Below are positions 44,400 to 49,383 of a stretch of DNA of 64,000 nt, piece after piece (position 1 is the first letter of the stretch; each line of letters starts with the position of its first letter). The translations under genes were made by a program, and so were the position numbers. Origin of the DNA: Pelagibacteraceae bacterium AG-390-L03 (GTDB lineage: Bacteria > Pseudomonadota > Alphaproteobacteria > Pelagibacterales > Pelagibacteraceae). The notes below the pieces were generated by a model. That model was not told the DNA's origin. It searched no databases and saw nothing but the letters and a program-made list of their open reading frames with translations. The stretch covers positions 496,001 through 560,000 of the forward strand of contig QCHA01000001.1 of the NCBI GenBank assembly GCA_003279685.1, in the 5' to 3' direction.

Positions 44400-45122
44400 A
44401 TGGAAAAAACTAAAAAAATTAAAATATTTATTGGTATATTTTATCTAACGGCTATTTGTTTATTTTTATATTTTTTCTTTTCTAAATTTAGCCTGCAAGA
44501 TCTTACATCTTATGATTTTATAAAGGAAAATAGATCCTACTTTTTTGATCTAAAAAATTCTAATTTATTTTTAATTTCAATAATTTTTTTATTACTAACA
44601 ATAATTTGGGTTTTCCCATTTTTAGGATTTGGTTCCCCTGTTGCATTGCTAGGGGGATTTATTTTTGGTGAATGGATTGGAACATTAATCGTTGTGTTAG
44701 GATTAAGTATTGGTGCAACTTTTATATACTTGTTTGGTAATTATTTTTTAAAAGAATTGATTAGAAAAAAATTTTTAAACAAATTTAAAAATCTTGAACA
44801 AAAATTTAAAAAATCTGAATTTATTTATTTACTAATATATCGTTTTATAGGAGGGATACCATGGCAATTAAGTTGTCTCCTGCCGACTCTTTTTAATGTA
44901 AAAGTAAATAATTTTTTCTTTGCAACTTTAATTGGAATTATACCTCAAATATTTTTGGCTGTTTCTATTGGCAGCGGATTAGAAAAAGTTATAGATCAGA
45001 ACTCAGAAGCTCCTAGAATAAGTGATATTATTTTTTCAGCAGATATTTATTTACCAATTCTAGCTTTTTTTGGATTAATTTTAATATCAATTTTTTTAAG
45101 AAAAATTTTCTATAAAAATTAA
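44400..45122 (+). CDS. TVP38/TMEM64 (VTT-domain) membrane protein
   Basis: 240 residues with about six hydrophobic segments and the VTT/DedA-like core: FLGFGSPVALLGGFIFGEW, then GLSIGATFIYLFGNYFL and YRFIGGIPWQLSCLLP. Related proteins act as lipid scramblases or undecaprenyl-phosphate flippases, so a lipid-transport role in the inner membrane is plausible but not shown. It is divergent from rpmH across 91 bases. A tRNA-Thr-like gene lies on the opposite strand four bases after its stop. Confidence 0.85.
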   Translation: MEKTKKIKIFIGIFYLTAICLFLYFFFSKFSLQDLTSYDFIKENRSYFFDLKNSNLFLISIIFLLLTIIWVFPFLGFGSPVALLGGFIFGEWIGTLIVVLGLSIGATFIYLFGNYFLKELIRKKFLNKFKNLEQKFKKSEFIYLLIYRFIGGIPWQLSCLLPTLFNVKVNNFFFATLIGIIPQIFLAVSIGSGLEKVIDQNSEAPRISDIIFSADIYLPILAFFGLILISIFLRKIFYKN

Positions 45123-45125
45123 TTA

Positions 45126-45199
45126 TGGTGCTCCCACCCTGTACTGACCAGGAAATTAGTCATTACCAATGACTTGATATACCATTTATCTATAGGAGC
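45126..45199 (-). tRNA. tRNA-Thr(GGT)-like gene with non-canonical T-loop, CCA encoded
   Basis: The reverse complement folds into a complete cloverleaf. The acceptor GCTCCTA pairs with TGGGAGC (7 of 7, one G-T), with discriminator A and encoded CCA. The D-stem is GATA/TATC with A14, GG18-19 and A21. The anticodon stem AGTCA/TGACT surrounds loop TTGGTAA, giving anticodon GGT (Thr ACC/ACU). The variable loop is AATT. The T-stem TCCTG/CAGGG closes on loop GTCAGTA instead of the usual TTCRANY: T54 is G and A58 is G, while T55 and C56 remain. All other tRNAs here keep the CGA core of the T-loop. The weak D-stem is also unusual. It could be a functional divergent tRNA, a tRNA with a special role, or an early pseudogene. 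Confidence 0.75.
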
Positions 45200-45299: not shown

Positions 45300-45500
45300 A
45301 TGGGAATTCATTACGATTATAAATCCACTAAAGGAAATAAGCTTATGGAGAAGCAAGCTAAAAGAGAGAAAAAGCTTGCTGAAAAAAAGGCTAAACGTTT
45401 AGCTAAAGAAGGTCCAAAAGAAGAGGAAGTTAAACCTAAAATATTAGATGCCTCAAAGCCTATAACTTTAGACTTTCTTACAAACCCAGATAAAGAATGA
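45300..45500 (+). CDS. Small highly charged protein, unrecognised
   Basis: 66 residues, dominated by Lys, Glu and Ala, with a central helix such as KQAKREKKLAEKKAKRLAKEG and a less charged C-terminus (ITLDFLTNP). No family is recognised. An in-frame Met at residue 16 (45345) is an alternative start that would keep the whole charged helix. The stop overlaps the ATG of the next 33-codon gene (ATGA), and that gene overlaps dcd, so three genes are tightly coupled. It may bind nucleic acid or ribosomes, judged only from its charge. Confidence 0.6.
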   Translation: MGIHYDYKSTKGNKLMEKQAKREKKLAEKKAKRLAKEGPKEEEVKPKILDASKPITLDFLTNPDKE

Positions 45501-45598
45501 ATTCTAAAGAAAAAAATGAGCGTTTAAGTTTAGCGCTAAGAAAAAATTTAAAAAAACGAAAACTTTTTCAAAAAAAAACTAAGAAGAAAACTAAATAA
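45497..45598 (+). CDS. 33-aa basic protein between the charged protein and dcd
   Basis: A 33-codon frame starting [20 protein letters not shown] and ending in a run of Lys. It overlaps the preceding stop by ATGA and the following dcd ATG by TAATG. The pattern [15 protein letters not shown] resembles short conserved alphaproteobacterial proteins with an RLxxALRxNLxRRK core (recollection of the pattern, not a search). Both its position, filling exactly the space between two coupled genes, and its composition argue that it is real. Function unknown. Confidence 0.65.
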
Positions 45599-46152
45599 TG
45601 TCAGTTCTTTCAGATAAGTGGATTAGAAAAATGTCAAAAGAAGAAGACATGATTTCTCCTTTTGAGGAAAAACAAGTCAGAGGAGACAGTATTTCTTATG
45701 GGCTATCATCATTTGGATATGATGCAAGAGTTTCTGATGAGTTTAAGATTTTTACAAATGTGAATTCAGAGATAGTGGATCCAAAAAATTTTAAACCAAC
45801 AAACTTTGTCACAAAAAATGTATCAGAATGTATTATTCCACCCAATTCCTTCGTTTTAGCAAGAACAGTCGAAAAGTTTAAAATTCCAGATGACATATTG
45901 GTTATTTGTCTTGGTAAATCTACTTATGCAAGATGTGGGATTATTGTAAATGTTACACCTTTAGAACCAGGCTGGGAAGGGTATGTAACACTTGAATTTT
46001 CAAACACCACCCCTTTACCTGCAAAAATATATGCAAATGAAGGTGTTGCACAATTTGTCTTTTTAAAGGGAAATGAAAAACCAGAAGTTACATATGCAGA
46101 TCGTGATGGAAAGTATATGGGTCAAACTGGAGTAACGTTACCTAAAGTTTAG
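45598..46152 (+). CDS. dcd: dCTP deaminase
   Basis: Deaminates dCTP to dUTP on the route to dTMP. 184 residues, trimeric dUTPase-like fold. Motifs: [37 protein letters not shown] with the Ser/Arg and catalytic Glu region, [18 protein letters not shown] and the C-terminal [11 protein letters not shown]. It follows the tiny basic gene with a one-base overlap and precedes murA by two bases. Confidence 0.97.
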
Positions 46153-49308: not shown

Positions 49309-49383
49309 GCCTCGGTAGCTCAGGAGTAGAGCAGAGCCCTGAAAAGGCTTGTGTCGGAGGTGCGAATCCTTCCCGAGGCACCA
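49309..49383 (+). tRNA. tRNA-Phe (anticodon GAA), CCA encoded
   Basis: The acceptor GCCTCGG pairs with CCGAGGC, with discriminator A and encoded CCA. The D-arm is GCTC/GAGC. The anticodon stem GAGCC/GGCTT surrounds loop CTGAAAA with anticodon GAA. The T-loop is TGCGAAT. It starts five bases after the infA stop. Confidence 0.98.

Follow-up and report, generated by a model that had tools for sequence, protein, structure and literature searches.

Minus-strand positions 45126..45199 of the window, the 64,000-nucleotide stretch of a Pelagibacterales (SAR11) genome analysed here, are a real tRNA-Thr(GGT) gene of 74 nt with an encoded CCA, in which the U54 and A58 letters of the canonical TTCRANY T-loop are absent and G54 and G58 stand in their place. 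Comparison with related genomes makes it very probable that the gene specifies a working, single-copy elongator tRNA-Thr(GGU) in which a G54-G58 pair probably substitutes for U54-A58. A functional divergent tRNA was one of the options offered in the original prediction for this stretch, and it is supported by synteny, single-copy status, covarying stems and the repeated occurrence of the odd loop.

The gene, its locus and its stems

The letters parse as a 7+4+5+5 cloverleaf with 21 of 21 pairs formed, T8, A14, GG18-19, A21, T33, the discriminator A73 and CCA, all as predicted. The anticodon GGT (45165..45167), identified by both ARAGORN and our cloverleaf filter, lies in the loop TTGGTAA, where it is flanked by U33 and A37 as in an elongator tRNA-Thr(GGU). 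The cloverleaf parse places the D-loop, AATGGTA with G18 and G19 retained, at 45180..45186. The T-loop GTCAGTA (45142..45148; G54 U55 C56 A57 G58 U59 A60, read from 45148 down to 45142) is closed by the T-stem TCCTG/CAGGG, and the core of this T-arm, CCTG-GTCAGTA-CAGG (45138..45152), was the exact search pattern in the scans described below; all of these features are on the minus strand. U55 and C56 are retained along with G18 and G19, as in a canonical loop, and the letters agree with the contacts that had been claimed to be lost (54-58) and kept (18-55 and 19-56), the geometry of which we infer. The D-stem, GATA/TATC, had been described as having a G-C pair at each end; it actually has a single G-C (G10-C25) and three A-U pairs.

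Folded alone, the tRNA forms the cloverleaf at -23.8 kcal/mol (z -2.69), and 2 of 200 shuffled sequences fold equally well. The gene had been called hidden, which is true of one search only. The filtered Rfam cmscan did not report it at the gathering threshold nor at E<=10, but ARAGORN called it with the correct anticodon and a whole-genome search with RF00005 scored it at 45.1 bits (E 1.1e-8, cut-off 29). As 45.1 bits stands well above the cut-off, cmscan presumably lost the gene at its pre-filter. With the covariance model R1, which has this gene in its training set, the score was 93.5 bits. The 5 promoter-like sites between 44900 and 45600 (2.8 expected) include no conspicuous promoter, and the interval has no terminator-like site.

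Convergent with the tRNA gene is a gene for a VTT-domain (DedA-like) protein (44400..45122, plus strand; Pfam PF09335). On the other side lie a divergent, conserved 66-aa ORF without a Pfam match (45300..45500, plus strand) and a conserved dCTP deaminase-like gene, dcd (45598..46152, plus strand; Pfam PF22769). In genus g1 loci, tRNA-Thr(GGT) is flanked by the VTT-domain gene and the 66-aa ORF, which mark the orthologous locus, with rnpA, dcd and murA nearby. This synteny was established by coordinates in L001-L007, L011-L013, L015-L021, L316 and L328-L357, as far as each locus extends, and in the named loci fetched with the T-arm pattern (at least 119) the neighbours were checked only for presence within the locus. 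None of these neighbours is present in 33 of 194 loci; 27 of the 33 are f2, viral or off-target loci (L008-L010, L014, L022-L030 and L358-L371), and the remaining six match by count the f2-type loci among the named ones.

Two variations were seen at the locus. The dcd beside the tRNA gene is either approximately 52-61% or 82-97% identical to that of the window (70% in L015), and these identity classes are scattered among near relatives, for example L004, L005, L006 and L011; allelic replacement of dcd is possible. The tRNA-Thr(GGT) genes at L316 11481-11556 and L016 1502-1575 end ACCG, leaving the terminal A of CCA unencoded.

Stem conservation was assessed in an alignment, A1, of 16 tRNA-Thr(GGT) genes from the order, 15 of which are distinct. 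Across the distinct homologues 99.0% of 315 cells of the cloverleaf are paired, compared with 80.1% in shuffles, and sliding the partners by 1-3 columns reduces pairing to 40-45%. Double changes affect 13 of the 21 pairs and amount to 54 cells where shuffles give 14.1, and on every measure of pairing or covariation none of 500 shuffles reached the observed value. Among 28 distinct 74-nt GTCAGTA cloverleaves, a double change is found at 18 of 21 pairs, the pairing level itself being fixed by their preselection at ≥20/21 pairs. When one filter (≥20/21 pairs, T8, A14 and CCA) was applied to 5.06 Mb, much of it collected because it carries these tRNAs, GTCAGTA yielded 27 cloverleaves and six permuted control loops yielded none. 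Covariation, control loops and the fold z-score all indicate that the four-helix cloverleaf is under selection in tRNA-Thr(GGU). The original prediction, which regarded chance formation of the helices as very unlikely and looked to the stems of relatives for compensatory changes, is borne out on both points.

Pairs 1-72 and 2-71 are determinants for the E. coli ThrRS. In A1, columns 1-72 (GC) and 2-71 (CG) and the anticodon are invariant. The window tRNA appears to have the ThrRS identity letters in its acceptor pairs and anticodon and would be expected to be charged. In the parts of PMC9976931 drawn on here, Thr identity is placed in the acceptor stem and anticodon.

Elbow types and their spread

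Judged from their D- and T-loop letters, the tRNA-Thr(GGU) genes of the order appear to have four elbow designs, three at the g1 locus and a fourth elsewhere in a sister family. At the g1 locus, type I combines the D-loop AATGGTA with the T-loop TTCAATT or TTCGATT (G18), type II, to which the window gene belongs, combines AATGGTA or AATGGCA with GTCAGTA (G18; a few have one extra D-loop base), and type IV, found in the closed relative G012, combines AGGTAGTA with TGCAAGT (A18). In the f2 family tRNA-Thr(GGT) is at another place, and there L008-L010 are type II and L023 and L025-L030 are type III, AATAGTA with AGCGTAA (A18). ARAGORN found no gene in any of the seven type III loci examined (the same L023 and L025-L030); cmscan scored the type III genes of L023 and L026 at 50.9 bits and does find the f2 type II gene in L008. 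As filtered cmscan misses the type II gene of the window and ARAGORN misses type III, gaps in codon decoding that SAR11 annotations show may in some cases be artefactual. At L213 4700-4764, a type II tRNA-Thr is missing 9 bases between the D-loop and the anticodon stem, a loss that is either genuine or an artefact of assembly.

The exact T-arm CCTGGTCAGTACAGG occurs once per genome in 75 of 296 genomes of the order (73 from genus g1 and two from f2), and the reversed T-arm in 0 of the 296. The original prediction had asked for conservation of the odd loop; the loop is shared by these 75 genomes, and other loop types occur in relatives. All but one of the 75 sites lie inside a match to R1, at offsets of 47 (69 sites), 48 (four) and 49 (one); the remaining site is in a disrupted gene in G054. 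R1, which was built on the A1 genes, matches 295 of the 296 genomes, a figure that is not a count of tRNA-Thr(GGT) because R1 also matches other tRNAs, up to nine per genome. Its best 30 loci, which are biased to the types in its training set, have TTCAATT in 26 cases and GTCAGTA in four. Class-wide, the T-arm is present in three of 389 genomes, namely SAR11 G000 and G112, and G335 (1/382 others). As the reversed pattern is equally frequent class-wide, also with three matches, occurrence outside SAR11 is at chance level. A GTDB scan returned at least 119 T-arm loci that, among the matches listed, are all titled Pelagibacteraceae, Pelagibacterales or Pelagibacter; they were fetched by the T-arm itself and are uninformative on its constancy.

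On a neighbour-protein tree (three proteins, 47 of 48 loci, a non-random sample picked by likeness to the window tRNA or by model score, with L007 and L346 on long branches), the elbow types need 4 changes against a shuffled mean of 11.0, and the data reject a topology uniting the 11 type II rows (p-AU 0.0007).

Searches of viral contigs with the exact T-arm gave 14 stretches: nine fold as cloverleaves with 20-21 of 21 pairs, and the other five are not tRNAs. The nine, which include two identical pairs, are five Thr(GGT), one Thr(CGT) and three Ile(GAT). One of them, in L362, ends TCTA instead of CCA, and a tRNA-Thr(GGT) in contig L368 differs from that of the window by two bases. With a looser pattern there were 13 stretches; five of these had not been found before, and none of the five (scores 14-16) is a tRNA. 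Of the 120 matches to a third pattern that were scored among those listed, one, L462, is a convincing tRNA, a tRNA-Gln(TTG) with GTCAGTA on a different T-stem, CCCCG/CGGGG; five others reach 18-19 of 21 pairs without G18-G19, a level that chance alone can thus attain when length is left free. An AGCGTAA pattern matched 10 viral contigs and no tRNAs, and distant blastn against an annotated phage collection gave no match to the window tRNA. The GTCAGTA loop of L192/L014 is on yet another stem, CCCTT/AAGGG. That GTCAGTA recurs with several T-stems and in several isotypes suggests a loop design that stands by itself. The viral GTCAGTA tRNAs with other isotypes (Ile GAT, Thr CGT and Gln TTG) are in L359, L362, L365, L371 and L462.

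The host tRNA-Thr(GGT) of AG-894-A11 (L192, the same place as L014) is split at the anticodon loop, with its 3' part at L192 5090-5133 on the minus strand. A complete and distinct tRNA-Thr(GGT) with GTCAGTA lies at L192 5384-5457, and an ORF of 415 aa, whose domains are Arm-DNA-bind_3 and Phage_integrase, overlaps its end. L192 5090-6680 is probably an integrative element that carries its own replacement tRNA. Given this element and the near-identical tRNA in L368, whole-gene replacement is a live route for type switches and may apply at the locus of the window gene. It is possible, and compatible with a working elongator, that the loop types spread in this way, via phages or integrative elements, and not stepwise, which the rejection of a single type II clade would also fit. 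However, no integrase was recognised in the scanned neighbouring genes of the window or, by a crude motif look, beside the viral tRNAs, where the one flagged ORF (L367) resembles a transporter by eye, and the neighbouring genes may themselves have recombined.

Elbow contacts and T-loop modification enzymes

Among 87 distinct SAR11 tRNAs, 79 have G18 with U55, eight have A18 with G55 and none is mixed, a count that is inflated by sequence relatedness and for which position 18 was assigned by a simple D-loop rule. The set includes the at least 119 pattern-fetched loci and the type III sequence, added by exact string since ARAGORN misses it; of 90 sequences, three were dropped because their 3' end or T-stem was faulty. 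In G012, G18 accompanies U55 in 29 of 32 tRNAs, and A18 accompanies G55 in exactly Phe, Val(GAC) and Thr(GGT). The window also contains a tRNA-Phe(GAA), called by ARAGORN at 49309..49383 on the plus strand, whose elbow is altered in this way (D-loop AGGAGTA, T-loop TGCGAAT, A18/G55). A18/G55 appears from these letters to be a covarying alternative elbow. A tRNA-Val(GAC) at L062 19301-19375 has AATAGTA and AGCGTAA, again with A18/G55.

TruB (PF01509) was not found at E<=1 in any of 13 genus g1 genomes, closed ones included, or in either of two g12 genomes. It is present in all five genomes from g7, g10 and g11 and in all five from f2. The truB gene usually lies between rbfA and rpsO. In the infB-rbfA-rpsO-pnp cluster of G012 (L320 14307-19271), which is without TruB, rbfA is followed directly by rpsO, 7 bases apart; the same order, also without TruB, is found in the window genome (L079 154-3512), with a spacing of 12 bases and the genes named by likeness to G012 and by an rpsO match. 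TrmFO (TIGR00137) was above the cut-off in 0 of 25 genomes, all of which have a weak match in a frame of 622-640 aa that is presumably MnmG. The TrmA-type domain PF05958 matched in three of the 25, two of them above the cut-off, and all three matches are partial and outside g1. Among 14 genomes used as controls, all 14 pass for TruB, seven for TrmFO and 11 for PF05958. A search of open-licence literature found, among the matches listed, no publication that describes unusual T-loops, or the absence of TruB, for SAR11.

As no full-length match to a known m5U54 enzyme was detected in the genomes searched, nor in g1 the Psi55 synthase TruB, T54 and U55 are probably only weakly constrained by the usual need for enzyme recognition. 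A lack of m5U54 enzymes would fit all of the odd-loop genomes. Loss of TruB as the sole or general cause of the odd loops does not hold, since type II (G041) and type III (G037) loops also occur in f2 genomes that have TruB.

In the canonical T-loop, according to the sections of PMC7912444 used here, U54-A58 stacks on G53-C61, residues 59 and 60 are flipped out, and U55 and C56 meet G18 and G19, respectively. A natural purine-purine 54-58 combination, A54-A58, occurs in eukaryotic tRNAi and tRNA-Ala together with a purine at 60, as set out in part of PMC7566577. In the window tRNA, U55 and C56 would likewise dock on G18 and G19, keeping the L-shape and the outward-facing G19-C56 pair, and U59 and A60 would stay flipped out. 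G54-G58 was reportedly among the active combinations in the suppressor tRNAs selected by Zagryadskaya, Doyon and Steinberg in 2003. As A54-A58 is tolerated and G54-G58 is said to be active, G54-G58 most likely stands in for U54-A58, probably as a purine-purine trans Watson-Crick/Hoogsteen pair.

It is distinctly less likely that the loop of a working elongator is folded otherwise, for example shortened by a closing sheared pair between G54 and A60. In favour of this, types II and III have A at position 60, and a purine at 60 is also found with A54-A58 in tRNA-Ala (in that part of PMC7566577). Against it, type II retains U55, C56, G18 and G19, as would suit a T-loop that docks normally. We tentatively propose that the SAR11 elbow behaves as an exchangeable module. 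Loss of modification enzymes may have freed T54 and U55, and tRNA-Thr(GGU) may have moved repeatedly between three types at this single locus (the sister family has a fourth), partly via complete tRNA genes brought by phages and integrative elements; the same freedom may have led to A18-G55 in Phe, Val and Thr.

Copy number, codon use and comparison with known tRNAs

The assembly of the window genome (19 contigs, 93% complete, 7,364 N) was scanned in pieces that cover all but 112 bases. One tRNA-Thr was detected, the window gene, and a whole-genome model search spanning the piece joints shows no other. The second, ordinary tRNA-Thr(GGT) whose existence had been raised as a possibility was not found in this assembly, the missing sequence of which might hold one. 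To the extent of a 93% complete assembly, the window tRNA is therefore orthologous, single-copy and at a conserved locus. Genes for tRNA-Thr(TGT), Trp, Tyr, Gly(TCC) and Leu(TAA) were not found in the assembly either. G012 has 32 tRNAs, among them a single Thr(GGT) and a single Thr(TGT); there the Thr(TGT) gene is adjoined by those for Trp, Tyr, Gly(TCC) and Leu(TAA), and one assembly gap would therefore explain all five. The Ala, Ile, Asp, Leu(TAG) and Val(TAC) tRNAs are also absent from the assembly, which needs further gaps or masked stretches.

The Thr codons in nine neighbouring ORFs are ACT (51), ACC (9), ACA (35) and ACG (4). The tRNA-Thr(GGU) would read ACC, and ACU via G-U wobble; these make up 60 of the 99 codons, and the window tRNA is the only tRNA-Thr found with a matching anticodon. 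For that reason it is highly improbable that it has been diverted from elongation, for example as a poor EF-Tu binder serving another pathway, with ACC and ACU read by tRNA-Thr(UGU). EF-Tu contacts the T-stem, near which the T-loop is altered, and nonproteinogenic tRNAs with odd loops exist elsewhere; however, the T-stem and acceptor of the window tRNA are ordinary, and relatives have a canonical loop at the same locus.

That the gene is a pseudogene, an ordinary tRNA-Thr(GGT) copy that has decayed or is decaying, as the original prediction had also allowed, is scarcely credible. The odd T-loop, the weak D-stem and the miss by filtered cmscan are what such a copy might show, and broken copies do occur elsewhere (L192/L014 and L213). 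However, this is the only GGT copy found, compensatory changes keep its stems, the same T-arm recurs across the order, 74 times in register within a tRNA match, and other loop types sit at the same locus; beyond the two broken copies, neither stem-breaking in relatives nor a functional duplicate was seen. A chance hairpin is ruled out by covariation, synteny and single-copy status, a thrS-leader-like mimic by the element's full acceptor stem and CCA and its position on the minus strand between plus-strand genes, and a piece of tmRNA by the genome's own tmRNA elsewhere, which ARAGORN flags as permuted.

Few parts of tRNA are as conserved as the T-loop, and the window gene, together with the other elbow designs of its relatives, suggests that a part thought to be fixed can change and still work. 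A natural, single-copy bacterial G54/G58 elongator that has canonical-loop relatives at the same locus lets the roles of the 54-58 pair and of T-loop modification be compared directly between closely related genomes. With canonical bacterial tRNA-Thr(GGU) (RF00005), the window tRNA shares its cloverleaf, anticodon, G1-C72, C2-G71, A73, CCA, G18-U55 and G19-C56, and orthologues at the same locus carry the canonical TTCAATT or TTCGATT. It differs from tRNA-Thr with a TTCRANY loop in having G54/G58 for U54/A58 and A60 for a pyrimidine, and cannot carry m5U54 or m1A58. The suppressor tRNAs of Zagryadskaya and colleagues are said to be functional with the same letters at 54 and 58; they were selected in the laboratory, whereas that of the window is natural and single-copy. 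Eukaryotic tRNAi-Met and tRNA-Ala(AGC), as covered in the relevant part of Westhof 2020 (PMC7566577), likewise have a purine-purine 54-58 combination and a purine at 60, but theirs is A-A with R15/A48, while that of the window is G-G with A15/T48. Altered D-/T-loop contacts are also a feature of tRNA-Sec, tRNA-Pyl and mitochondrial tRNAs in the portion of PMC7609411 considered here; in contrast to these, the stem lengths, connector and variable loop of the window tRNA are ordinary, and only the letters of its T-loop differ.
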